DNA from: Acrocarpospora macrocephala | Lineage (GTDB): Bacteria > Actinomycetota > Actinomycetes > Streptosporangiales > Streptosporangiaceae | Direction: 5' to 3' | DNA length: 64,000 bases | NCBI RefSeq assembly: GCF_009687865.1 | Contig: NZ_BLAE01000004.1 | Location: 186,001 to 250,000, forward strand | Part shown: positions 26,948 to 39,359 of the stretch, piece after piece | Layout: the number at the start of each line of letters is the position of its first letter | Numbering within the stretch: position 1 is the first letter of the stretch | The notes under the pieces: generated by a model | The model's input: only the letters and a program-made list of their open reading frames with translations | Databases searched by the model: none | Told to the model about the DNA's origin: nothing | Program-made: the position numbers and the translations under genes

Positions 26948-27919
26948 ATGGACATCGAGCGTCTCGACTACGCCGACCCCGGCGACCGCCTGCACGCGTT
27001 CCACGCCATCGCCGCCGCCGATGAGGCTCCCGGCCCCGTCTCGTCCTTTCCACGCTTCGCCGTGGTGGCCGAACACGGCTGGACGGCCGAATACGGCGAA
27101 ACCTACGTCGCCCGCCTCGACGGCCAGGTCGTCGGCGGAGTCGCGGTGCACATCCCGGGCACCGACAACACCCACGCGGCCCTGTTACGCATCTTCCACG
27201 TCAGCTCCGCCCACCGCCGCCAAGGCATCGGCACCGCCCTGCTCGAACGTGCCATCACCCGCGCCCGAGCCCACGACCGCCAGATCCTCTTCGCCGAAGC
27301 CCGCCCCGACTCCCCCGGCGGCGCCTTCACCCGCAAACACGGCTTCGAGGCCGCCTCCGCCCAGGCCAGACGCATCCTCGACCTCACCTCCGTCGACTGG
27401 ACTGCGTACGAGAAGGGGGTAGCGAGCCTCTCCCCCGACTACACCCTCGACCGCTGGCAGGACGCGGCCCCCGACGACCTCGTCGACGACGCCGCCACCC
27501 TGATGGACGCCATGAACGACGCCCCCTCCGACGGCCTGGACACCGAACCCATGCGCTGGACCGCCGCCCGCATCCGCAGATTCGAAGCAGGCTGGGCCAA
27601 AGGCCAGCAAACCGCCTACACCACGATCGCCCGCCACCGCCCCACCGGCCGCCCCGTCGGCTTCACCCGCATCATCACCGACCACACCCCCGACGGCTGG
27701 GGCCGCCAAACCGACACCGCCGTCCTCCGCGAACACCGCGGCCACCACCTCGGCCTCATCATGAAACAGGCCAACACCACCTGGTTCCACGCCGAACAAC
27801 CCACCGCCACCAAAATCATCACCTGGAACGCAATCACCAACACCCACATGATCGCCATCAACGAACAACTCGGCTACCGCCTCCTGGACATCTGGAACGA
27901 ATGGCAGCTGTCGCTCTAG
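26948..27919 (+). CDS. Tandem GNAT-fold N-acetyltransferase
   Basis: This 323-residue protein has two GNAT domains. The first covers about residues 1-150 with VSSAHRRQGIGTALLERAITRARA as its acetyl-CoA motif. The second covers about 170-323 with DTAVLREHRGHHLGLIMKQANTTWF and the typical NAITNTHMIAINEQLGY end. It may acetylate an amine or self-protect against a toxic compound; the substrate is unknown. It is a single gene with no operon partner. Confidence 0.88.
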   Translation: MDIERLDYADPGDRLHAFHAIAAADEAPGPVSSFPRFAVVAEHGWTAEYGETYVARLDGQVVGGVAVHIPGTDNTHAALLRIFHVSSAHRRQGIGTALLERAITRARAHDRQILFAEARPDSPGGAFTRKHGFEAASAQARRILDLTSVDWTAYEKGVASLSPDYTLDRWQDAAPDDLVDDAATLMDAMNDAPSDGLDTEPMRWTAARIRRFEAGWAKGQQTAYTTIARHRPTGRPVGFTRIITDHTPDGWGRQTDTAVLREHRGHHLGLIMKQANTTWFHAEQPTATKIITWNAITNTHMIAINEQLGYRLLDIWNEWQLSL

Positions 27920-27993
27920 ATATTCAGCTTGACCTGGCAGTCCCTGAGCCAGGCATCGAGCTGCCTGCCATCGCATCCTTCACGCGGTAATCC

Positions 27994-29157
27994 TCAAGAG
28001 TTGTCGAGGCGGGGAAACGCGACCTCTCGCAGGATGAGGCGTAGGGCCGCTGCGATGGGGATGGCGAACAGGGCGCCGAGGATGCCCATCAGGGCGGCGC
28101 CGAGGGTGACGGCGATGAGGGTGACTACTCCGGGGACCTCGACGGCTTTGCCCATGACGCGCGGGACCAGGACATAGTCCTCGAAGAGCCGGTACGCCAC
28201 GACGTAACCGACGGTGGCCAGCGCGATGGGGAGGGAGATGGACAGGGCCGCCAGGGAGATCACGACGCCGCCGATGGTGGAGCCCACGACGGGGATCAGG
28301 TCCATGAGCGCGACGAACAGGGACAGGAGCAGCGCGTAGGGGACGTTGAAGAGGAACAGCCAGATGAAGGTGAGGACGCCGGCGACCAGGGAGGTGACGA
28401 GGTTGCCGAGGACAAACCAGCCGACCTTGTTCAGGATGTCATCGCCGATGAGGATCGCGCGGGGGCGCCGGGAGTTGGGTATGCAGCGGTAGGCGAAGCC
28501 CTTGATCCGGGGCAGGTCGGCGAGGAAGTAGACGGTCAGCACCAGCACGATCACCGTCGAGGCGGCCGCGCCCACCACCACCTTGCCCGCGCCCAGAAGC
28601 CCGCCGACCAGCGCGGTCTCGCTCTTCCCCGTACCCAGCTCCTGAATGACGTGCGCCAGATTGAATCGGGTGTTGAGCCGCCCGATGAACGTGTTCTGGC
28701 TCGTGGCCTCCCGGAGATAGACGGGCACCTCGTGGACGAACTGACCCACCTGGCTGACGATCACCGGAATGGCCAGCGCGAGGAACCCCCCGACCAGTGC
28801 CAGCGTCGCGACGACGATGATCAACACGCTTGCCCAGCGCGGCAACCCCCGCCGTACCAGCCAGCTGGCGGCCGGATCGAGCCCGATCGCGATGAACAAC
28901 CCCAGCCCGATGAGCACCAGCACGTCCTTGACCGCCCCCAGCAGCAGGATCACCCCATAGGTGGTGGCCACCCCCGCCGCAGCCATCATCCCCACAGAGA
29001 ACGGCGACCGCCGATCGAATGGCCGCCCCTGCTTACCGAACGGCTGCTCTTCCGTGGCGGTCGCACTGGCTGTCTCAGCCGCCCGCTCAACGGTTCCTTC
29101 AGGAGGCCGCCCCGCCTCAAGATTGGGCGACGCGGGCGGCCTTTCTCGAGACGTCAT
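27994..29157 (-). CDS. AI-2E family transporter (TqsA/PerM-like permease)
   Basis: This 387-residue polytopic membrane protein has a 60-residue polar N-terminus, then about eight hydrophobic segments. Landmarks are ILLLGAVKDVLVLIGLGLFIAIGLDPAASWLVRRGLPRW, VVGAAASTVIVLVLTVYFLADLPRIK and ALMDLIPVVGSTIGGVVISL. The PxVGxxIGG block is the AI-2E family signature. Family members include exporters and Na+/H+ antiporters, so AI-2 transport itself should not be assumed. Confidence 0.9.
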   Translation of the reverse strand: MTSRERPPASPNLEAGRPPEGTVERAAETASATATEEQPFGKQGRPFDRRSPFSVGMMAAAGVATTYGVILLLGAVKDVLVLIGLGLFIAIGLDPAASWLVRRGLPRWASVLIIVVATLALVGGFLALAIPVIVSQVGQFVHEVPVYLREATSQNTFIGRLNTRFNLAHVIQELGTGKSETALVGGLLGAGKVVVGAAASTVIVLVLTVYFLADLPRIKGFAYRCIPNSRRPRAILIGDDILNKVGWFVLGNLVTSLVAGVLTFIWLFLFNVPYALLLSLFVALMDLIPVVGSTIGGVVISLAALSISLPIALATVGYVVAYRLFEDYVLVPRVMGKAVEVPGVVTLIAVTLGAALMGILGALFAIPIAAALRLILREVAFPRLDNS

Positions 29158-29769
29158 GGCATATCAGGCCCTCCAACACCCCAGGCCATTCCCCCGCGTA
29201 CGCCCCCATGCGTGGACAACGTCGAGCTTTACCGGAAATTGAACCCGCCGGGCGGTTGACGGCCCAGCCCGGCCCGTCCGCCTGCCAGAGCTCCGCGCGG
29301 ATCCCGGTACTCGGCCGGGAGGTCATGACCGCTCCCCAAGGCAGGCAACCGGCCCAAAAACTTGCGATCGGCTCAAGGCTCGCCTCCGGCAAGGTGACCG
29401 GGTGCGGGCGGCGGGGACCGCGGCCATCTCGCCGGGCAGCTCAAGAAGGCCGAAGAATTGGAAGGGTGTCATCGTGATCTCGTCCTTGCTTTGGCCAGGC
29501 GGCTGTCGTCCGAATGTCCGGCGAGAACAGGTGAAGGGCCGAGCGCGTGTGAGGAGCGGGCTCGCCGGTCCTTCGACCGGGTCTTTGGCCGGGTTCTTGG
29601 CGAGCTAGGTAGGGGCAGAGCTTGGGGCGTCCGAGCCGAGGTGGAGAGCGGTGGCCACTAGCGTATGGCCATCGATGGTCCAGGATTCACTTCCTTCGGG
29701 GTTCGGGCATCTTGATCGGTGATGCTGAACTGCGGGAATCTCGGCAAGGGGAGGGCCTGGAGGGGCAGG
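29158..29769. other. 612-bp region without a convincing gene
   Basis: No family is recognised here. A 67-codon plus-strand frame at 29458-29661 (EGCHRDLVLALARRLSSECPAR...SFDRVFGRVLGELG) has a helix-like composition and could be the tail of a decayed gene, but it has no clear start or ribosome site. The region marks the left edge of the unusual 29.8-36.5 kb block. Confidence 0.5.
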
Positions 29770-30306
29770 ATGGTGCGCGTGATGGGTATCGGAGGCGTTG
29801 CCCCGCAGCAGGAGGGCCTGTTCGGCGATGCGGGTTCTGGTGATGTCCCCGAGCCGGTGCTGATGGCGCTCCACGCCGAGTACTACGAGCTGATCTGGCG
29901 GGGGCTGAAGAGGCACGAGTTCCGCCGCCGTTTCCTCGAAGGCCGGTCCACCCGCTGGTTCGTGTACCTGAACGCGCCGGTGTCGCGGCTGGCGGCGGTC
30001 ATCGACCTGGGTCCGGCGGTCGTCGATGCCCCTCAGCAGATCGCGGCGATCGCGGAGCAGGCCCGGACGGGGAACGGGGCCAGCGTGCTGGAGTATGTGC
30101 AGGACCTGGAACGCGCGTTCGCGATCCCGATTCTGCACGTCGCCGAGTATCCGGGCCTGTCGGCAGCCGAACTGCGCGACGAACTGGGCGCCTTTCACCC
30201 GCCACAGGGGTATGTCCGGCTCAATCAACATCCGCGGCTGCTGGCGATCTGTGAAAAGGTCTCGGCCGAGACCCCGATCCGCCGCATGTCAGTGCATCAT
30301 CGGTGA
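29770..30306 (+). CDS. ASCH/PUA-like domain protein
   Basis: This 178-residue protein, after a short N-terminus, has VLMALHAEYYELIWRGLKRHEFRRRFLEGRSTRWFVYLNAPVSRLAAVIDLGPAVV. It resembles the ASCH/PUA-like pattern (I..G.K..E.RRR, then a beta-strand core). Such domains bind RNA or modified nucleosides. The ATG follows GGAGGGGCAGG. It lies 49 bp before the XRE regulator on the same strand, so it may be the first gene of the unusual operon or a neighbour only. The family call is by pattern and is moderate. Confidence 0.6.
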   Translation: MVRVMGIGGVAPQQEGLFGDAGSGDVPEPVLMALHAEYYELIWRGLKRHEFRRRFLEGRSTRWFVYLNAPVSRLAAVIDLGPAVVDAPQQIAAIAEQARTGNGASVLEYVQDLERAFAIPILHVAEYPGLSAAELRDELGAFHPPQGYVRLNQHPRLLAICEKVSAETPIRRMSVHHR

Positions 30307-30355
30307 TGTCGGCGCTGTAGGGCGCCGTGTGCCGGACTCCGGAAGGTGATCGGGT

Positions 30356-31147
30356 ATGTCCCGCCGCCCGTCTCGATCGGCGCAGCAGGTCTCACCGTTG
30401 CGGCAGGCCAGGCTGGTTCGGAACTGGACGCTGGAGCGTCTGGTCGAGGAGATCGACCTGCGTACTCCCGGCGGCCACTCCGGGGTCACTCCGAGCATGG
30501 TGTCCGGATGGGAACTCGGAAGACACACGACCAGCATCGGGCACCGCGCGACACTATGCGACATCTACGAGCAGTCGCCGGACGTGCTGTTCGCACACCA
30601 GGACCAGGGGCTGACGGATCGAGCCGCACCCCGGCTGCTGGCCGGGTACGCCGACCTGCACAAGGCGATGCTGGCCACCGTCACCGGTGCCCGGGAATGC
30701 CTGGCGGTGATGGGGTCACGCTCGCGTGACCCCATCTACCTGGCGGCGATCGAGGCGGTACTGACCGAGCGGCCTTCGCTGGTCTACTACCGTGTGCTAT
30801 TCGGCCCGCCCCACCACCAGGTGCTCAAGGATCATCTGCTGGCGCTGTTGAGGCTGCGTGATCCACACGATCGGAGTCTGGGTGTCAAGACCCTGCATGT
30901 GGGATTGGTGGAGGACACCACGACAGCGCCTGAGCGATTCTTTTGTGCGAACGAACAGATGGCGGTCGTCCCCATTCCGTCGCTGACCTCCCATGAGGCG
31001 TTCGACTCCGGTGTTGTGCTCGGGGCGGCGCCGGCGGCACGGCTGCTGGATCATGGCAGGCAGGCCTACGCTGCTTCACGCCGGGTGGAGACCATCGAGG
31101 AGGTCACCGCGCTGGACGTGCTGCGGGAATGGAGTTCACAGATATGA
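30356..31147 (+). CDS. XRE-type helix-turn-helix regulator of the adjacent cluster
   Basis: This 263-residue protein has an N-terminal helix-turn-helix (LRQARLVRNWTLERLVEEIDLRTPGGHSGVTPSMVSGWELGRHTTSIGHRATLCDIY). A C-terminal domain of about 170 residues follows (ECLAVMGSRSRDPIYLAAIEAVLTERPSLVYYRVLFGPPHHQVLKDHLLALLRLRDP). The C-terminal part looks like the PLD-like or ligand-sensing half of some XRE regulators but lacks a clear catalytic motif. The stop overlaps the next gene by 4 bp (ATGA), so it is translated with the enzymes it presumably controls. Confidence 0.82.
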   Translation: MSRRPSRSAQQVSPLRQARLVRNWTLERLVEEIDLRTPGGHSGVTPSMVSGWELGRHTTSIGHRATLCDIYEQSPDVLFAHQDQGLTDRAAPRLLAGYADLHKAMLATVTGARECLAVMGSRSRDPIYLAAIEAVLTERPSLVYYRVLFGPPHHQVLKDHLLALLRLRDPHDRSLGVKTLHVGLVEDTTTAPERFFCANEQMAVVPIPSLTSHEAFDSGVVLGAAPAARLLDHGRQAYAASRRVETIEEVTALDVLREWSSQI

Positions 31148-32361
31148 CGAGCAAGCGCAACACTGCCATCGACGCCGCAGGCTCGTTGCGGGCCGCTCGT
31201 GATGACCATGCCGGGGTGGTGAAGCTGACCCGTGAGCTGGTGCGGATCCCCAGCCGCGGCGGCATCGACCCCTATGACCCGGTGCTGGACTATATGGAAT
31301 CCTGGTTGGTCGAACATGGTCTTGCCTGTCGGCGCCTGGCCGGGCCAGGCGGGACGACGGCCGCGTTGGCTTGCGAGGTCATCGGGGCGGGGCCGGGGCC
31401 CCGCTACGTTCTGGACGCGTGCTTGGACACCGCTCCTTTCGGGGATGAGAGCGCCTGGACCTACCCGCCGACCTCGGGAGAGATCACGGGTGAATGGCTG
31501 CACGGGCGCGGATCCTCGGACTCCAAGGCCGGGGCGGCAATCTTCGCGCACATCGTCGCCCGGCTTCAGCAAACGGCCGACCAATGGCCGGGTTGTGTCG
31601 TGCTGCTGTTCGACGTGGACGAGCACACCGGCGCTTTCGGCGGCGCGAAAGCCTTCTTCGAAGGCGAGAACGTCGGCCGGGTTGACGGGGTGATGATCGG
31701 CTACCCCGGCAAGGACCATGTGGTGACCGGCGGGCGTGGCGTCTTGCGTACCCGGATGCATGTCCATGGGGTGGCGAGCCATTCGGGCGCGAGCAAGACC
31801 ACCCCGTCGGCGATCGCCAAGGCAACCGCGCTTATCTCCCGCCTGCATGAGGCTCGGCTGCCGGGACCGTCCGGCCCGGCCTTCCCGCTGCCGGCCAAGC
31901 TCACCGTCACCGCGATCAACGGCGGCGAGGGATACTCGACCGTCCCGGATCTGTGCACGTTCAACGTTGATGTCCGCCTTACCCCCGCGCTGGACGATCA
32001 GGCCGCCCTGGAGTTGCTGCGCTCGGCCGCCGCCGACGTCGATGCGGCCTGGCCGGGAACGCAACCGTCCCACGTGGAGGTCACCACCCGCTGGCCGCCG
32101 TTCGCGCTGCCCGAACAGGCGCCGCTGCGCACGGCACTGCTCAATGCGGCCAACGCCGCCGGGCTGGCGGCGACGGCGAAGGTCGCCGGGCCGTCCAACA
32201 TCGGCAACTACCTGGCCGGGCTCGGTATCCCCGCCCTCGCCGGGTTCGGCGTCGAGTACCAGGGACTGCACGGCACCGACGAGCAGATCCTCCTGAAATC
32301 CATCCCATCCGTCCAGGCCACCTACCACCAGGCCTTGCTCACCCTCCTGACCCTGTCCTGA
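31144..32361 (+). CDS. M20-family amidohydrolase-like protein with altered metal ligands
   Basis: This 405-residue protein has the M20 (ArgE/DapE/CPG2) layout: catalytic halves flanking a dimerisation domain. Landmarks are VLDACLDTAPFGDESAW (residues 89-105), HGRGSSDSKAGAA (120-132, bridging Asp D126), VDEHTGAFGG (158-167) and GLHGTDEQ near the C-terminus. In most M20 enzymes the first motif is H-x-D and the third is DEE. Here the positions are C93-L-D95 and D159-E160-H161, so two metal ligands are replaced by Cys and His. It may bind zinc differently or act on another amide. Its ATGA overlap with the XRE gene places it first among the enzymes. Confidence 0.8.
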   Translation: MTSKRNTAIDAAGSLRAARDDHAGVVKLTRELVRIPSRGGIDPYDPVLDYMESWLVEHGLACRRLAGPGGTTAALACEVIGAGPGPRYVLDACLDTAPFGDESAWTYPPTSGEITGEWLHGRGSSDSKAGAAIFAHIVARLQQTADQWPGCVVLLFDVDEHTGAFGGAKAFFEGENVGRVDGVMIGYPGKDHVVTGGRGVLRTRMHVHGVASHSGASKTTPSAIAKATALISRLHEARLPGPSGPAFPLPAKLTVTAINGGEGYSTVPDLCTFNVDVRLTPALDDQAALELLRSAAADVDAAWPGTQPSHVEVTTRWPPFALPEQAPLRTALLNAANAAGLAATAKVAGPSNIGNYLAGLGIPALAGFGVEYQGLHGTDEQILLKSIPSVQATYHQALLTLLTLS

Positions 32362-32500
32362 CCTGCGGCGAAGATTCTGCCGTCGGCAACTGGTCGACAA
32401 ACGGGCGACAGGCGCACGCCAGCCGATGCGCTGGCTGGTGCCTTCCTGCCGGGTGATGGTGGCGGCATCGGCCATCACCTGCCCGTGGAGGACAACGGTC

Positions 32501-33607
32501 ATGGACGCTCTTCCCGCCGACCTCACCATCGGCTTCCCCCGTGAAAGCCGCATCGAACGGCGCACGGTCCTGACCCCTGCCCTGGCCCGATCCTTGATCG
32601 CGGCCGGGTTCGGTGTCGTCACCGAACCCGGAATCGGAGCAGGAGTATTCATCGGAGACGAAGAGTACGCCGCGGCCGGGGTCCGCCTCGCCGAGGCGGA
32701 ACAGGTGTGGTCAGCTCCACTGCTCCTGCGCTACAAATCACCTGACCCCGACGACCTGCTCCGGCTACGGACAGGGCAGCATATCGCTGCCTTGTTTCAT
32801 GCCGAAGGCGACGCCGAGTTGCTGACCGCGCTCCAGGACTGCGGTGCGACCGCCTGGAGCTATGAGTTCGTCATCGAAAACGGCTGCTTCCCGCTCGGTC
32901 AGCCGGGCGGGAGGATCGCGGGCGTCCAGGCCGTCCTCGCAGGAGCTCACGCCCTGCAGACCTCGGCTGGCCGGGGTGTGCTGCTGGCTGCGGTCGATGG
33001 GGCGGAGCGGGCGAACGTCGTGGTCATCGGCTCCGGCAACGTCGGTGCCGCCGCCGCTGAGACAGCGGCCATGCTCGGCGCGGATGTCACCGTGCTGACC
33101 CGGGCGGAGACATCACGCACCGACTACCTGCGGCGGGCACCGGGGGGAATAGAAGTACTGGTCAACAGCCGCGACACCCTCCTGAGGTGCCTCGGCGACG
33201 CCGATCTGGTGATCGGGGCAATCTTGGTGTCCACCTACGACACCCCACCGATGATCGGCGAAGCTGACCTGGCGGTGATGCGACCAGGTGCGGTGATCAT
33301 TGATGCCACCTGCGGCTACGGGTCTGGGTACCTGCCCACCGCCGGGCCGGTCCAAGCCCCGGGCGAGCCGCCCAGGCTGGTCGCCGGGATCTTGCACGTG
33401 AAGATCGATGTCTTTCCGGCCTTGGTCCCGGTCACCGCGACTGCGGCCTACGTGGCCAACGCTATGCCGTACTTGGTGAGGCTAGCCGAAGTCGCGCTAC
33501 TCGGCGCAGCCGATGCAGCGATCGAGGCCGCCCGCATCGCCTGCGCAGGCCATCTGGTGCACCCGGTGCTGATCCAGCACGCCAAGATCTATGGGATGCG
33601 GCCGTGA
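32501..33607 (+). CDS. Alanine dehydrogenase/PNT-family oxidoreductase
   Basis: This 368-residue protein has both AlaDH/PNT domains. The N-terminal substrate domain contains IGFPRESRIERRTVLTPALARSL, LLLRYKSPDPDDLLRLRTGQHIAALFHAEGD (the expected Lys and His). The NAD-binding domain contains VVVIGSGNVGAAAAETAAMLGADVTVLTR. It should catalyse reductive amination or oxidative deamination of an amino acid, or be a relative with another substrate. The ATG has GGAGG 9-10 bases upstream. A 139-bp gap with a GCCAGC/GCTGGC hairpin (about 32417-32434) separates it from the M20 gene, the only real gap in this operon. It overlaps the next gene by 4 bp. Confidence 0.83.
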   Translation: MDALPADLTIGFPRESRIERRTVLTPALARSLIAAGFGVVTEPGIGAGVFIGDEEYAAAGVRLAEAEQVWSAPLLLRYKSPDPDDLLRLRTGQHIAALFHAEGDAELLTALQDCGATAWSYEFVIENGCFPLGQPGGRIAGVQAVLAGAHALQTSAGRGVLLAAVDGAERANVVVIGSGNVGAAAAETAAMLGADVTVLTRAETSRTDYLRRAPGGIEVLVNSRDTLLRCLGDADLVIGAILVSTYDTPPMIGEADLAVMRPGAVIIDATCGYGSGYLPTAGPVQAPGEPPRLVAGILHVKIDVFPALVPVTATAAYVANAMPYLVRLAEVALLGAADAAIEAARIACAGHLVHPVLIQHAKIYGMRP

Positions 33608-34347
33608 CCGGCGACTATCGGGCGCGCGCCCGCCACTACGCCGCCGAGATCAGCCACATCCTGCAGCCCGCAGCGCTGGCGGGCCTGCTGCGGCCAGGGC
33701 TGAAGGTCGCGGAGATGCCCAGCGGAACCGGACACTTCCTGCCCGCCTACACCGCCGCCGGAGCCGATGTCGTCTTGATCGATGCCTGCCCCGCCATGCT
33801 GGAGGCCGCCCGCCGCCACGCACGAACCTTGAGAACTGATCCGGGTCTGGTCTGTTCGCCGATTCAGGACCTCACCCTGCGGGTAGGCCCGTTCGACCTG
33901 GTCGTGATGCCCAATGCCGCCCTCAACCAGCTCGCAGCCGACACCGCGCCAGCCGAACTGCTCGCCGCGGTCGCCCGCCCATTACGGCCCGGGGGAATAC
34001 TGCTGGTCCAAGTGCTGAACCCGGCGCAAGACGGCGCCTGCGGCTTCTACGATCCAGGCCTCAGCGACGGGACCTGGTACGCCGATCGAGAGTTCGCCGA
34101 CCAGCCCGGACAGCCACTCGTCCGCCGTCGCCGCCAGCACCACGGCGCTGGCCTGGTCGATATCGACTTCGAACTCCACCAGAACGGAGAACTCCTCTAC
34201 CGGCATCACGTCACCCTGCAGCTGCTGGATATCACGGAGCTGCGGGCTGCACTGGCGAGCAGCGGATTCACCGACGTGAGCGTCCATCCCGGCACCGGCG
34301 GGCTGGACGAACTCCTCGCGGCCCGTTCATCCGGGCACTCGCTGTGA
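33604..34347 (+). CDS. Class I SAM-dependent methyltransferase (first of two)
   Basis: This 247-residue protein has motif I KVAEMPSGTGHFLPAYTAAGADVVLIDACPAML and motif IV GPFDLVVMPNAALNQLA. The C-terminal half is beta-rich and ends in ITELRAALASSGFTDVSVHPG. The motif I stretch EMPSGTGHF is unusual, where E-x-G-x-G is expected. It starts at GTG within the AlaDH stop (GTGA) and ends with another GTGA overlap. The acceptor is unknown; an amine or carboxylate of an amino-acid derivative is plausible from context. Confidence 0.82.
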   Translation: MTGDYRARARHYAAEISHILQPAALAGLLRPGLKVAEMPSGTGHFLPAYTAAGADVVLIDACPAMLEAARRHARTLRTDPGLVCSPIQDLTLRVGPFDLVVMPNAALNQLAADTAPAELLAAVARPLRPGGILLVQVLNPAQDGACGFYDPGLSDGTWYADREFADQPGQPLVRRRRQHHGAGLVDIDFELHQNGELLYRHHVTLQLLDITELRAALASSGFTDVSVHPGTGGLDELLAARSSGHSL

Positions 34348-35018
34348 GGCCGGCAACGATCGCTGATGCCAACCAGTACTGGGAGCGGTACTACAGCGGC
34401 GAGTTCATCTTCGGTCTGGGCACCGAACACATCCTGGCCGTCCTGCAGCAGATCCCACCCGCCAGGACATGGGCGGATCTCGGCGCAGGCTCGGAATCGC
34501 TGCTGTGGTCCATTCCACTGGACGCCGGGCATCTGTTCGCCGTCGACCTCGACCCGCACCGGCTGGCCCTGCTCCGCGACTACGCGGCCGCCCGCCGCCC
34601 CCGCGGCGCTTATCAGACCGCCCTGAAGCTTTGCGGCCGGAACGCGGACGATTTCGCGCAGCGGTGCGACCGCCTGGCCGCCACCATCATCGCTGACTGC
34701 CTTGCCGGCTACCCGACACCGCTAAGGGCTGGGTGCGCCGACCTGGTCACCCAGTTCGGTCTACTCGGTCTGGCCACCAGCCATGCCCAGTTCCTGACGA
34801 GCTGGAAGGCATGCCACGAGCCCCTCGCGGCAGGTGGCTGGGCGGCCGGGGCGAACTGGAACGCCACCGCCAAGCACGGCCGCATCCAACTCTCCCAGCA
34901 GCTCTATACCGCCGCGTGCGCCGAGACTGGTATGACTCCGCTGCTGGTCACACGTGTCCCCATCACCGCCGACCCCGACTTCGACTCGGTCTGGATCTAT
35001 CTTGGGAGGAAGACGTGA
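34344..35018 (+). CDS. SAM-dependent methyltransferase-like protein (second of two)
   Basis: This 224-residue protein begins MRPATIADANQYWERYYSGEFIFGLGTEHILAVLQQI and has motif I TWADLGAGSESLLWSIPLDAGHLFAVDLDPHRL. The rest, including DLVTQFGLLGLATSHAQFLTSWKACHEPLAAGGWAAGANWN, is reminiscent of small-molecule N-methyltransferases such as the NNMT/PNMT group, but the match is loose. It is distinct in sequence from the preceding methyltransferase. GTGA overlaps on both sides tie it to its neighbours. Confidence 0.72.
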   Translation: MRPATIADANQYWERYYSGEFIFGLGTEHILAVLQQIPPARTWADLGAGSESLLWSIPLDAGHLFAVDLDPHRLALLRDYAAARRPRGAYQTALKLCGRNADDFAQRCDRLAATIIADCLAGYPTPLRAGCADLVTQFGLLGLATSHAQFLTSWKACHEPLAAGGWAAGANWNATAKHGRIQLSQQLYTAACAETGMTPLLVTRVPITADPDFDSVWIYLGRKT

Positions 35019-36148
35019 CCCCCATCTCGGCCAGCCCCAGCGACCAACTGATCTTCGCACCCGTCGGCATCACCCACCTGACCGGCGACAACGCCGACCT
35101 GATCAGAGCCGCCGCAGCAGGACGCTCCCGCATCCGCCTCACCACCGCAGCCCAGCTCAACGGCGTCCCCCACTTCGGGACGGTCGTCACCATGCTGACC
35201 GTGTTCGCCTTCGCCCAGCGCACTGGCGAGGTCCTCGACCTCCCTGTGAGCATCGTGTTCGACGCGCTGGAGAACGCCCCCGCCGAACACCTCACCATCG
35301 ACAGCGAGATCTACACCCGCAGCGTCGGCGACCTTATCGACACCGGTCATCTGGACCGCGCCGAACGCGTCGGCGGGTTCGAGCAACTGCTCACCTGGGC
35401 ACACCGCCGATCCGGCATCACCTACGAATTCCGGCCCTATAACGTCTACCAAGGGCTGCGTCCGGTCCGTGAGTGCCTCCACCACATCGCCTCCCGCCTG
35501 GAGACGTTCGCGCCGATCGTCGCCCCCCACGACGGGATCATCCGGATCCGGCCCCGCTGCCCCTCCTGCCGGCTCATGCAGAAATCCGCTAAGGACCTGC
35601 GCATCACAGCTCTATCGGGCGCGATCCGGCTCGACAGCCGCTGCCCCCGGCATGGCCCCTACGCCGAACTGGTCCACATCGACGGCGGAGGCTGGTACGA
35701 CGCCAACACCCCTGTCCGATCCGTCCAGAAGGGCTACCTGCTCGCCGCCGAACGCGACCTCTATGACGCCTGCTCGGTCTCCGTCGACGGCGCTGACTGG
35801 GGCGGAGCCTGGCACGCCCACGTTCTGGCCCCCGCTCTCGCTCACCTCGGCATCCCGCCCACCCACTGGCCAGTGTCGATCTTCACCCCGCTCATCACCG
35901 ACCGGACCGGCGGCAAACTCTCCAAGACCCTCTACGTCGCCCGCGGCACGTATGCCAACTTGCCGGAACTGTTCCTCAACCTCGACGTCCTACTCGCTCA
36001 GCACGGCGAACAGATCCTCGATCTCATCTGGGCCGAAGTAACCCGGTGGGCCGGCGAACCCCGCCGTCTGCACCGCACCTACACCGTCGACTACATCACC
36101 GCGCTACTGGAAGCCGGACGCCCCTCCGAGCAACTCCGCACCGCATGA
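35015..36148 (+). CDS. Class I aminoacyl-tRNA-synthetase-like protein without anticodon domain
   Basis: This 377-residue protein shows class I synthetase signatures: PHFGT at residues 52-56 in place of HIGH, and KLSKT (301-305) in place of KMSKS. Between them lie CPSCRLMQ...CPRHG, a probable zinc ribbon, and VDGADWGGAWHAHVLAPALAHLG before the KLSK loop, an arrangement like class I lysyl-tRNA synthetase. The C-terminal remainder is only about 75 residues, so no anticodon-binding domain is present. By analogy with MshC (a CysRS relative that joins Cys to an amine), it may activate an amino acid as its adenylate and transfer it to a small amine. The GTG follows GGGAGGA and overlaps the previous stop. 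The family call is mine by motif and needs a structure search. Confidence 0.7.
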   Translation: MTPISASPSDQLIFAPVGITHLTGDNADLIRAAAAGRSRIRLTTAAQLNGVPHFGTVVTMLTVFAFAQRTGEVLDLPVSIVFDALENAPAEHLTIDSEIYTRSVGDLIDTGHLDRAERVGGFEQLLTWAHRRSGITYEFRPYNVYQGLRPVRECLHHIASRLETFAPIVAPHDGIIRIRPRCPSCRLMQKSAKDLRITALSGAIRLDSRCPRHGPYAELVHIDGGGWYDANTPVRSVQKGYLLAAERDLYDACSVSVDGADWGGAWHAHVLAPALAHLGIPPTHWPVSIFTPLITDRTGGKLSKTLYVARGTYANLPELFLNLDVLLAQHGEQILDLIWAEVTRWAGEPRRLHRTYTVDYITALLEAGRPSEQLRTA

Positions 36149-36534
36149 GACGAGACACCGCGATGATCCACGCCGTCTTCGACGTCACCGAATGCAAGCA
36201 CAGCGACACCCCAGCCGAACAGATCATGAGCGCCATGCGCGCGACCGCTGAACTCCTCGGCTGCACCATCCGCACCCAGGTCATCGAGCCCTTCCAACCC
36301 CACGGCGCAACCTGCGTGCTCATCCTCGCCGAGTCCCACATCACCGTATCTACCTGGCCCGAACACCGACTCGCCCACATCGACGTGTTCACCTGCCGGG
36401 CCGCTATCGATCCCACGCAAGCGATCAAGCCAGTCATCGAGGTCCTGGGCGGGCAGATCACCCACGCCCAAAAGGTCACTCGGTTCTCACCAACCACGAA
36501 GCGTTCAGGTACTGGACCTGGCCGAGCATCGTGA
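36145..36534 (+). CDS. S-adenosylmethionine decarboxylase-like pyruvoyl enzyme (SpeD family)
   Basis: This 129-residue protein matches prokaryotic SpeD: FDVTECKHSD, HGATCVLILAESHITV, STWPEHRLAHIDVFTC. The predicted self-cleavage is before S64 in AESH, which becomes the pyruvoyl group; C84 matches the catalytic Cys. The usual HTWPE is STWPE here, so the His thought to assist processing is Ser (S69). SpeD homologues have been recruited as ornithine or arginine decarboxylases, so AdoMet need not be the substrate. It ends the operon; the ATG overlaps the previous stop (ATGA), and a strong hairpin terminator follows at 36681. Confidence 0.8.
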   Translation: MRRDTAMIHAVFDVTECKHSDTPAEQIMSAMRATAELLGCTIRTQVIEPFQPHGATCVLILAESHITVSTWPEHRLAHIDVFTCRAAIDPTQAIKPVIEVLGGQITHAQKVTRFSPTTKRSGTGPGRAS

Positions 36535-36680
36535 AGGTCAACGGCGGCTCAATCATGAGTCGCTGCTGGCCTCCGCCAGCATTGCCGGGACGTGAACACC
36601 GCCCTCACCAGGTCACGAGGGGCCAGTCCCGCAGTGCAGCAGCCGCTCCCCTGACTCCTACATCACGTCGTCCGCTTGAA

Positions 36681-36710
36681 GAGGAGGGACGCCCATCGGC
36701 GTCCCTCCTC
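36681..36710. terminator. Strong bidirectional hairpin terminator
   Basis: GAGGAGGGACGCC (36681-36693), loop CATC, and GGCGTCCCTCCTC (36698-36710) form a perfect 13-bp stem between the convergent speD-like and urtE genes. No T-run follows, as is common in GC-rich actinomycetes. The rest of the 256-bp gap contains nothing else recognisable. Confidence 0.85.
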
Positions 36711-36790
36711 GGCTGTCCACGAGCGAGGCCGTGCCGCGCTGGGGCCGGGATGACCCGGGCGGTCCCGCCTCGGTCCCGGGGATCGATCGT

Positions 36791-37480
36791 CTACACGGCC
36801 AGGAGGCGGCGGGCTTCCTCGCCCTGGAGGTCGGCGGCCGTGCCCGCGTGGACGACGCGGCCGGCGTCGAGGATGACATAGCGGTCGGCCAGGCGCATGG
36901 CGAGGTCGAGGTACTGCTCGACCAGGAGGATGGCGATGCCGGAGGCGTGTAGCTGCTCGATCGCCTCCTCGATCTCGATGATGATCGAGGGCTGGATGCC
37001 TTCGGTGGGCTCGTCGAGGATGAGGAGTTTGGGTTGGGTGACGAGGGCGCGGGCGATGGCGAGTTGTTGTTGCTGGCCGCCGGAGAGGAAGCCCGCGCGG
37101 CGTTTGAGGAGGGGTTTCAGGCGAGGGAAGACGTCCAGGGCCTCGTCGAGGGCGGATGGAGGGTTGCCGGAGGCGTCCAGGGTGACCTGGAGGTTGGCGT
37201 GGACGGTGAGTTGGGGGAAGGTTTCGTGGCCCTGGGGGACGTAGCCGAGGCCTAGCCGTACCCGCTCGTGGGGTTTGAGCTTGGTGATGTCGCGGTCGGC
37301 GAAGGTGACGGTGCCGGCCGTGGTGGGGAGCACGCCCATCAGCGTGTTGAGGAGGGTGGTCTTGCCGACGCCGTTGCGGCCCATCACGCAGACGAGCTGG
37401 CCGGGGGCCACCTCGAGGGAGACGCCGAACAAGACGCGGGCGCGGCCGTATCCGGATTCCAGGCGGTCAACTGACAACAT
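36791..37480 (-). CDS. urtE: Urea ABC transporter ATP-binding protein UrtE
   Basis: This 229-residue LivF-type ATPase has Walker A GRNGVGKTT, LSGGQQQQLAIARAL, Walker B LLILDEPTEGIQPSI and the family-typical VEQYLDLAMRLADRYVILDAGRVV. It energises urea import with UrtD. The chosen ATG (37480) begins MLSVDRLESGYG; GGAAGG lies 9 bases upstream. It is the last gene of urtABCDE and faces a strong terminator. Confidence 0.93.
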   Translation of the reverse strand: MLSVDRLESGYGRARVLFGVSLEVAPGQLVCVMGRNGVGKTTLLNTLMGVLPTTAGTVTFADRDITKLKPHERVRLGLGYVPQGHETFPQLTVHANLQVTLDASGNPPSALDEALDVFPRLKPLLKRRAGFLSGGQQQQLAIARALVTQPKLLILDEPTEGIQPSIIIEIEEAIEQLHASGIAILLVEQYLDLAMRLADRYVILDAGRVVHAGTAADLQGEEARRLLAV

Positions 37481-37515
37481 TGTGTGCTGCCTTCCCATGA
37501 CGGGCGTGAAGGAGG

Positions 37516-38277
37516 TCACGTGACGGCATCGTGTGCGGCCTCCTCGCGGGCGCGGCCCAGGTAGACCTCCTGGACGCGGGGGTCGGCGCGGACCTCGTCC
37601 ACCGAGCCCTCGATCAGGACCTTGCCTTCGTGCAGGACGGTCACCTGGGAGGCGTACCTGCGGAGGAACTCCATGTCGTGCTCGATCACGATGACCGTGT
37701 GGTCCTTGGCGATGGAGGTGAGGAGCTCGCCGGTGCGGGCGCGTTCTTCGGAGGACATGCCGGCCACCGGCTCGTCCAGCAGGAGCAGGCGCGGGCCCTG
37801 CGCGATGAGCATGCCGATCTCCAGCCACTGGCGCTGGCCGTGCGAGAGCACGCCCGCCTTGCGGGGCGCCAGGTCGGCCAGGCCGGTGGTCTCCAGGGCC
37901 TGCTCGACGGCGGCGATCACGCCCTTGCGCCGCCGCAGCAGCGACCAGAGCGGGCGGCGGAACGAGGCCGCCAGGTCGAGGTTCTCCAGCACGGTGAGGT
38001 CCTCGAACACCACCGAGGTCTGGAAGGTGCGGCCGATGCCGAGCCGGACCCGTTCGTGCTCGCGCTTGCCCGCCAGCGAGTTTCCGTCGAAGACGACGGT
38101 GCCGGTGGTCGGCTTGGTGAGGCCGGTGATGATGTCGATGAGCGTGGTCTTCCCGGCGCCGTTTGGGCCGATCAGGAAGCGCAGCTCGCCGCTGTCCACG
38201 GTGAAGTCCACGCCGTCGATGGCCCGGAAGCCGTCGAACACCACGGCGAGGTCACGGACCTCCAGCAGCGCCGTCAT
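37516..38277 (-). CDS. urtD: Urea ABC transporter ATP-binding protein UrtD
   Basis: This 253-residue LivG-type ATPase has Walker A GPNGAGKTT, LSHGQRQWLEIGMLIAQGPRLLLLDEPVAGMSSEERARTGELL and the VIEHDMEFLRRYASQVTVLHEGKVL tail. The LSHGQRQWLEIGM variant of the ABC signature is typical of UrtD. Its ATG overlaps the urtC stop (ATGA). Confidence 0.94.
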   Translation of the reverse strand: MTALLEVRDLAVVFDGFRAIDGVDFTVDSGELRFLIGPNGAGKTTLIDIITGLTKPTTGTVVFDGNSLAGKREHERVRLGIGRTFQTSVVFEDLTVLENLDLAASFRRPLWSLLRRRKGVIAAVEQALETTGLADLAPRKAGVLSHGQRQWLEIGMLIAQGPRLLLLDEPVAGMSSEERARTGELLTSIAKDHTVIVIEHDMEFLRRYASQVTVLHEGKVLIEGSVDEVRADPRVQEVYLGRAREEAAHDAVT

Positions 38278-39359
38278 GCCGACGCCTCCTTCCGCACCCG
38301 GGCGCGCAGCGCCGTGGCCACGCCCACGATGCCCTTCGGGGCGAGCGTCATGACCAGGATGAACAGCGCGCCCTGCAGGTAGAGCCAAGCGTCCGGCAGT
38401 TCCTCGCTGAAGTAGGTCTTGGCGTAGCCCATGACGACCGCGCCGAGCACCGCCCCGGCCAGCGCGAACCGGCCGCCGACGGCGACCGCGACCACCAGTT
38501 CGAGCGAGGGCACCACGCCGAGCAGCGCGGGCGAGATGATCCCGACGACGGGCACGAACAGCGCTCCGGCGATGCCCGCCATCACCGCCGAGATGGCGAA
38601 CGTGATCGTTTTCACGGTGGCGGGGTTGTAGCCGAGGAACCGCACCCGGTCCTCCCCGTCCCGCACGGCCAGCAGCAGCCGCCCGAACCGGCTGCGTACC
38701 AGCTGCCAGGCCGCCAGGTAGAGCACGCCCAGCACGATCGCCACCGTCAGGTAGAGCCCGCGCTGCGTGGACTCGGCCGCCACGTCGTTGCCGAAGAAGT
38801 CGAAGAAGTTGGTCAGCCCGTTGGTCCCTCCGGTCAGCCCTTGCTGGCCGACTAGAAGGATCACCATCGCGGCCGCCAGCGCCTGGGTGAGAATCGCGAA
38901 GTACGCCCCGCGCACGCGTTGCCGGAACACCAGCGTGCCCAGCAGCACCGCCACGACCAGCGGCACGACCACCACCATGGCCAGCGCGAACACCGGATTG
39001 CCGAACGGCGCCCAGAGCGCGGGCAGGTCCTCGACCCCGCTCCACACCATGAAGTCGGGCAGGTCCCCGCCGGCGTCGTTGAGCTTCAGATACATGCCCA
39101 TCGCGTAGCCGCCCAGGCCGAAGAAGACGCCCTGGCCGAGGGTGAGCATGCCGCCCTGCCCCCAGGCCAGGCCGATCCCGAGCGCGACGATGGCATAGCA
39201 GAGGTATTTGGCCAGCAGGCCAAGCCGGAAGGGTTCCAGCACCAGCGGCATGACCACCAGCGCGATGATCGCGACCGCGACGAACACGGCCGGGCCCTTC
39301 CACTGGCGCGGCTCCTTGGGCGTGAGTTGCCGGGTCGGCTTCTCCAGGACTGCGGTCAT
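38274..39359 (-). CDS. urtC: Urea ABC transporter permease UrtC
   Basis: This 361-residue LivM-type permease has about ten hydrophobic segments. GLAWGQGGMLTLGQGVFFGLGGYAMGMYLKLNDAGGDLPDFM and AVRDGEDRVRFLGYNPATVKTITFAISAVMAGIAGALFVPVVGIISP are typical UrtC blocks. It pairs with UrtB to form the membrane channel. Start and stop overlap urtB and urtD by 4 bp each. Confidence 0.94.
   Translation of the reverse strand: MTAVLEKPTRQLTPKEPRQWKGPAVFVAVAIIALVVMPLVLEPFRLGLLAKYLCYAIVALGIGLAWGQGGMLTLGQGVFFGLGGYAMGMYLKLNDAGGDLPDFMVWSGVEDLPALWAPFGNPVFALAMVVVVPLVVAVLLGTLVFRQRVRGAYFAILTQALAAAMVILLVGQQGLTGGTNGLTNFFDFFGNDVAAESTQRGLYLTVAIVLGVLYLAAWQLVRSRFGRLLLAVRDGEDRVRFLGYNPATVKTITFAISAVMAGIAGALFVPVVGIISPALLGVVPSLELVVAVAVGGRFALAGAVLGAVVMGYAKTYFSEELPDAWLYLQGALFILVMTLAPKGIVGVATALRARVRKEASA

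Follow-up and report, generated by a model that had tools for sequence, protein, structure and literature searches.

A mobile eight-gene cluster of actinomycetes with a lysyl-tRNA synthetase-like protein, and its possible part in making an amino-acid-derived amine or amide

The genome of Acrocarpospora macrocephala contains, at positions 29770-36534 of the stretch analyzed here (the window: 64,000 nucleotides of contig NZ_BLAE01000004.1), eight open reading frames that all lie on the plus strand. Their starts were picked from the sequence. Two of the products, a second methyltransferase and a protein related to aminoacyl-tRNA synthetases (aaRS), specifically to class I lysyl-tRNA synthetase (LysRS), were assigned to families through structure prediction. 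The genes, together called the module below, and the features that accompany them are as follows.

29770-30306, plus strand: ASCH-like protein, start codon uncertain; conserved first gene of an ASCH-XRE-M20 group
30356-31147, plus strand: XRE-type regulator whose C-terminal domain is conserved but has no assigned fold
31144-32361, plus strand: M20/DapE-ArgE-type hydrolase (M20); ATG 31129 is an alternative start
32362-32500, plus strand: 139-bp intergenic gap, separating two gene groups that other genomes arrange divergently
32501-33607, plus strand: alanine dehydrogenase-like (AlaDH-like) oxidoreductase, AlaDH_PNT_C
33604-34347, plus strand: methyltransferase 1 (MT1), Methyltransf_25
34344-35018, plus strand: methyltransferase 2 (MT2), predicted fold nearest the NNMT/PNMT amine N-methyltransferases
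35015-36148, plus strand: class I LysRS-like (aaRS-like) protein, 377 aa, by predicted fold, with PHxGT and KLSK-type motifs
36145-36534, plus strand: SpeD (S-adenosylmethionine [AdoMet] decarboxylase)-like protein, AdoMet_dc, with Ser for His68
36681-36710, plus strand: hairpin with a 13-bp perfect stem, 146 nt past the last stop codon, without a T-run

Pfam matches were found for M20 (7.9e-22), AlaDH_PNT_C (2.7e-34), MT1 (Methyltransf_25, 8.9e-13) and AdoMet_dc (7.9e-24), while the best matches of the XRE protein (HTH_31, 0.018) and of MT2 (0.069) fell under the cut-off and the aaRS-like protein had none. Five junctions are 4-bp overlaps (XRE/M20, AlaDH/MT1, MT1/MT2, MT2/aaRS and aaRS/SpeD). 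These overlaps and the 139-bp gap had been described in an earlier account made from the DNA letters alone (the sequence-only reading), which counted seven to eight plus-strand genes. Its gene list also holds for the seven families that it named, but its title omitted the ASCH gene, which lies within the same span and belongs to the conserved set. The strong terminator that it placed at the end of the run is indeed a strong hairpin, as the folding energy of the 71-nt stretch containing it is -38.9 kcal/mol (z -4.33), a value that none of 200 shuffles matched, but a terminator consensus scan returned 0 sites, and we infer only that transcription likely ends there. A sigma-70 promoter scan found no candidate.

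Recurrence and organization of the eight genes

The cluster is real, mobile and co-conserved. The aaRS-like protein matches 28 of 297 genomes of the order, and in seven genomes, with 8 loci, the identity is at least 61%; a profile scan of genome contigs with the aaRS-like alignment gave 10 loci, from which four duplicates (L056, L060, L062 and L063, identical to L037, L040, L041 and L039) and a distant Pelosinus locus (L064) were excluded. The co-occurrence that the sequence-only reading had proposed looking for is thus found at 13 loci in 12 genomes: the window, L037 to L043, L055, L057, L058, L059 and L061. Ten of these are complete and three are trimmed by contig ends. L055 holds all eight genes with the first and last clipped, the contig of L057 begins within XRE and hence carries no M20, and that of L058 (4.4 kb) begins at AlaDH. 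Hosts include Thermomonosporaceae, Streptosporangiaceae and Dactylosporangium metagenome-assembled genomes, Nocardia asiatica, N. alni, Saccharopolyspora spinosa, two Nocardiopsis and one Nocardiopsaceae strain.

The gene order can be read at 12 loci, all but L058: the genes are collinear in three (the window, L037 and L055), and in nine ASCH-XRE-M20 diverges from AlaDH-MT1-MT2-aaRS-SpeD. AlaDH and MT1 form a single open frame in both Nocardia loci, and S. spinosa (L059) has both XRE and MT1 broken over two frames, through either decay or draft-sequence error. Among 143 open reading frames in flanks of up to 8 kb at 11 loci, the most widespread family is common to four loci. One genome, G067, carries two copies on two contigs (L042 and L043); their flanks differ, with no family in common, and their identity to the window is equal for most genes.

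Searches with MT2 gave a similar picture. Sixteen of 294 genomes match, strongly only in the same seven aaRS-like genomes, while one other, G275, reaches 2.6e-20; across the class 39 genomes match, of which the three strong ones are all module genomes and the remaining 36 are weak and partial. Gene distances are correlated over nine loci and six genes, a pattern that kinship of the species alone may produce. What looks like a decayed remnant of the module lies on a Streptosporangium plasmid (L136, 8998-14459), where ASCH is intact, XRE and M20 are each spread over two frames, stops interrupt the AlaDH stretch, MT1 is partial, and MT2, aaRS and SpeD are absent; no plasmid matched either the window MT2 or that of G275. 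The 13 loci, with their two gene orders, several actinomycete families and largely unshared flanks, mark the genes as one functional unit. That unrelated pathways are neighbors here by chance is extremely improbable; no point in its favor was found, the single AlaDH-MT1 frame in two loci speaks against it, and the co-conservation survey rules it out.

The LysRS-like protein, its ASCH partner and the accompanying enzymes

The predicted fold of the aaRS-like protein is that of the class I LysRS catalytic core, aligning to residues 7-379 of a 508-residue chain. HIGH-like (PHxGT) and KMSKS-type (KLSK-type) residues are retained, but structural alignment reveals no C-terminal anticodon-binding domain. 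Sequence similarity is far fainter: the window protein does not match PF01921 (a distant Macrococcus relative reaches 9.4e-5, 21.9 bits against a cut-off of 27), a search of the PDB with the sequence alone gave no match, and its profile gave weak ones, the best being GluRS at 0.31. The cysteine ligases of mycothiol and bacillithiol synthesis, MshC and BshC, have a similar class I core and are among the structural matches; the module enzyme, however, is nearest to LysRS rather than CysRS, and its gene set differs from theirs. In the N-N forming systems PyrN and Spb40, an aaRS paralogue couples amino acids without tRNA (PMC8664883 and PMC2922099), but that paralogue is derived from MetRS and works with a cupin and a lysine N-hydroxylase, none of which is among the eight module genes. 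PMC12945691 covers aaRS-like enzymes, and its text nowhere contains the word "lysyl". A literature search, with few subscription journals, found no account of the enzyme set, of LysRS-like/ASCH pairs or of XRE-M20 in clusters among the titles and abstract openings listed. The sequence-only reading likewise named no known cluster with these enzymes.

The ASCH assignment is diffuse at the level of Pfam (PF04266, cut-off 21.2 bits), with 13.5 bits (0.12) for the window protein, 22.0 for a Nocardia homologue and no match for that of S. spinosa; the window protein also matches PADLOC PDC-M11B at 9.7e-14. The module ASCH profile detects ASCH proteins adjoining distant LysRS-like genes as well. In the one locus where fusion was checked, L047, ASCH and the LysRS-like core form a single protein (Pfam 3.7e-9), and the two adjoin on Streptomyces plasmids, Macrococcus plasmids and in phage Mojorita; an ASCH search in phages at 1e-5 returned zero matches. 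Neighborhoods were examined for 18 loci from 17 of the 28 aaRS-matching genomes, 11 of the loci being distant relatives whose genes were called, roughly, with a simple gene caller.

Several distant settings deserve separate description. L044-L054 share an operon of a ~305-aa protein (no Pfam match in the two scanned), an AAA_28 protein and the LysRS-like protein. In Streptomyces phage Mojorita (L137, 3893-5364), the LysRS-like gene is followed by the ASCH-type gene beside an integrase, and a LysRS-like gene is also present in phage Picard. Pantoea (L034, 7261-11041) and Pelosinus (L064, 9267-13104) have an identical five-gene set of methyltransferase, LysRS-like protein, TIGR00730 (LOG-type) protein, DMT-type transporter and Ham1, which perhaps makes a modified nucleobase. 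In a Streptomyces locus (L080, 8342-11807), the LysRS-like gene lies beside genes for a low-molecular-weight phosphatase-family protein and an ARMT1-like phosphatase. Of six Streptomyces loci, one (L083) has a PALP-OCD-OTCase set, four are without a clear biosynthetic set, and L085 is a remnant only.

Among the remaining four enzymes of this gene group, the AlaDH-like and SpeD-like proteins have changes at catalytic positions. The AlaDH-like protein is similar to alanine dehydrogenase over nearly its full length (2.8e-61 against 2eez). The catalytic residues of that enzyme, which along with their numbering we take to be His96 and Asp270, have fared differently: all 12 module rows retain the His96 position but have Gly at Asp270, inside the invariant TCGYG of the signature DATCGYGxGYLPTA. 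The Lys75 position is also kept in the module. For MT2, the predicted fold is nearest NNMT/PNMT (Foldseek 2.2e-14, TMq 0.78), although identity in the NNMT rows is 13-15%, and its profile has no PDB match below 0.019. The SpeD-like protein passes both TIGR03330 (82.3 bits against 75.65) and PF02675 (84.5 against 25). In Thermotoga maritima numbering, its S63 and C83 positions are retained and H68 is Ser in 12 of the 12 module rows that cover the site, L055 being clipped; all three residues are essential for SpeD processing, according to PMC10407285. The same source describes neofunctionalized homologues, SpeDA and SpeDC, that act outside AdoMet decarboxylation and are at times an extra copy; the module protein may resemble them in this respect but differs in its Ser68, the comparison covering the S63, H68 and C83 positions. 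SpeD copies outside the module have His68 in five of five cases (second copies in the two Nocardia and S. spinosa, and both copies in G275).

G275 offers a view of these four enzymes on their own. A single 20-kb stretch of its genome encodes SpeD, AlaDH, a transaldolase-like protein, an MT1-like protein, a HAD hydrolase and MT2. When the eight window proteins were compared with this genome by tblastn (0.01), AlaDH, MT2 and SpeD were found and ASCH, XRE, M20 and aaRS were not, nor was G275 reported among the aaRS-like matches of the 297-genome search. MT1, missed at that threshold, was recovered by phmmer (4.1e-12) and by profile (1.5e-20) in a search of few proteins; it is the weakest link to G275, since methyltransferases resemble one another. 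The AlaDH of G275 shares TCGYGxGYLPTA with the module but does not retain the His96 position. Its plasmid matches number 323 records, and the 15 of these that were listed have 35-40% identity and are mostly annotated as alanine dehydrogenase. Judging from this one genome, the four enzymes probably produce a shared building block, with ligation following in the module.

These observations bear on two other interpretations. The LysRS-like and ASCH proteins could charge or modify an RNA (a tRNA or fragment), with aminoacyl-RNA as donor or modified RNA as end product, and the fusion, the plasmid and phage adjacencies and the RNA-binding annotation of the phage ASCH-type gene would all suit such a function. 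We consider it unlikely, if worth keeping in mind: the anticodon-binding domain is missing, no tRNA gene was found in 27000-39000, a similar quartet exists without ligase or ASCH, and the NNMT-like fold of MT2 suggests a small substrate. Alternatively, in a polyamine-type pathway, SpeD would decarboxylate AdoMet, one methyltransferase-fold protein would be an aminopropyl transferase and the ligase would cap the polyamine. The module SpeD passes TIGR03330, is the sole PF02675 protein in 7 of the 10 module genomes searched (12 in total), and is accompanied by one spermidine-synthase-like match elsewhere in the window genome. Yet the contrast between Ser68 in the module and His68 in other copies, the retention of such a His68 copy in three module hosts and the NNMT/PNMT-like predicted fold of MT2 make this pathway quite improbable.

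The control pair and the function of the cluster

XRE and M20 are found well beyond the module. XRE homologues (45-66% identity) adjoin M20 in all five plasmid loci examined from 12 records found: three with lasso-peptide sets, one with an AroB-like set and one with the decayed module. The lasso cyclases (L138, L139 and L140) score 219-282 bits against NF033561, below its cut-off of 300, while the B2 proteins of L139 and L140 pass NF033537 (that of L138 was outside the scan); the AroB-like protein reaches 236.5 against TIGR01357, below its cut-off of 305. At 1e-20, XRE matches 9 of 394 genomes. Three have the module, and G464 has a graspetide set behind the pair (TIGR04186, TIGR04187 and TIGR04188, each above cut-off). 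G547 has an ASCH fragment with XRE-M20 at a contig end, G541 has two XRE-M20 loci, one broken and neither with a clear cluster, G455 has the pair followed by masked sequence, and G410 and G017 have XRE fragments only. In Streptomyces L138, L139, L140, L141 and L153, XRE-M20 lies immediately upstream of lasso-peptide, AroB-like and graspetide sets.

The M20 protein is itself altered. We take the metal ligands of Haemophilus influenzae DapE to be H67, D100, E135, E163 and H349, and the base to be E134. Ten of ten rows retain the D100, E134 and H349 positions and have Cys at H67, His at E135 and Tyr at E163, so that three of five ligand positions are changed (C98, H166 and Y192, numbered from ATG 31129). 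The altered motifs also occur in M20 proteins beside other clusters, L156 fitting two of four motif expressions. Against the PDB the XRE profile does no better than 0.11. Ten intergenic stretches were compared for a shared XRE operator; TCGACAA occurs in seven (shuffle maximum 6), 8- to 10-mers are at or under the shuffle maximum, and no operator is claimed. The occurrence of XRE-M20 ahead of varied biosynthetic sets makes regulation a more likely role for M20 than trimming of the product, as the sequence-only reading had it; an enzyme of the product pathway is unlikely. By its distribution in sequence, then, XRE-M20 appears to be a portable control pair.

That the pair heads biosynthetic gene sets also argues against a conflict or defense cassette, an idea encouraged by the PADLOC match of ASCH, the presence in phages of distant homologues of aaRS-ASCH and the two copies in G067. 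Six of the eight proteins have no PADLOC match, and MT1 gives a methyltransferase-domain match to mad2 only; we regard defense as very doubtful.

On balance we favor, with some reserve, a compact, mobile biosynthetic cluster with its own control pair, whose product would be an undescribed amine or amide derived from an amino acid. By the logic of MshC, the LysRS-like enzyme would adenylate an amino acid and hand the aminoacyl group to an amine or other nucleophile rather than to tRNA. AlaDH-like, MT1, MT2 and SpeD-like proteins would build and methylate the small partner, a role suggested by the similar quartet that occurs without the ligase. ASCH may help the ligase or act on its product, and M20 would make or remove a small ligand to which XRE responds in controlling the cluster. 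The small-molecule pathway of the sequence-only reading is therefore likely, but the details of its chemistry (decarboxylation of one amino acid, ligation to another, then methylation and oxidation or reduction) are in part right and in part unproven.

That said, a number of observations weigh against this proposal. A SpeD-like protein that lacks an essential processing residue may provide no decarboxylation step, and the AlaDH-like protein has Gly for Asp270. The conserved set includes no transporter or resistance gene and has no known product. tRNA could also be the acceptor: PHROG 35625 labels the family tRNA synthetase, ASCH domains are often RNA-binding, and the phage ASCH-type gene is so annotated. 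Distant relatives lie beside ASCH genes in phages and plasmids, surroundings that are not necessarily biosynthetic, and in the distant actinomycete loci the ~305-aa family adjoins in 11 of 11 and a second family (fam2) in 7 of 11.

More tentatively still, a hitherto undescribed family of class I LysRS-derived ligases with ASCH partners may form amide or acyl bonds in plasmids and phages as well as in actinomycete clusters, with XRE-M20 as a general, exchangeable switch before unrelated clusters. If these proposals are true, a LysRS-type enzyme would join the few aaRS-derived ligases of specialized metabolism, and there would be several families of enzymes to study whose catalytic positions carry fixed changes. 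XRE-M20 would likewise provide a genome-mining handle for lasso-peptide, graspetide and other clusters that perhaps answer one kind of signal.

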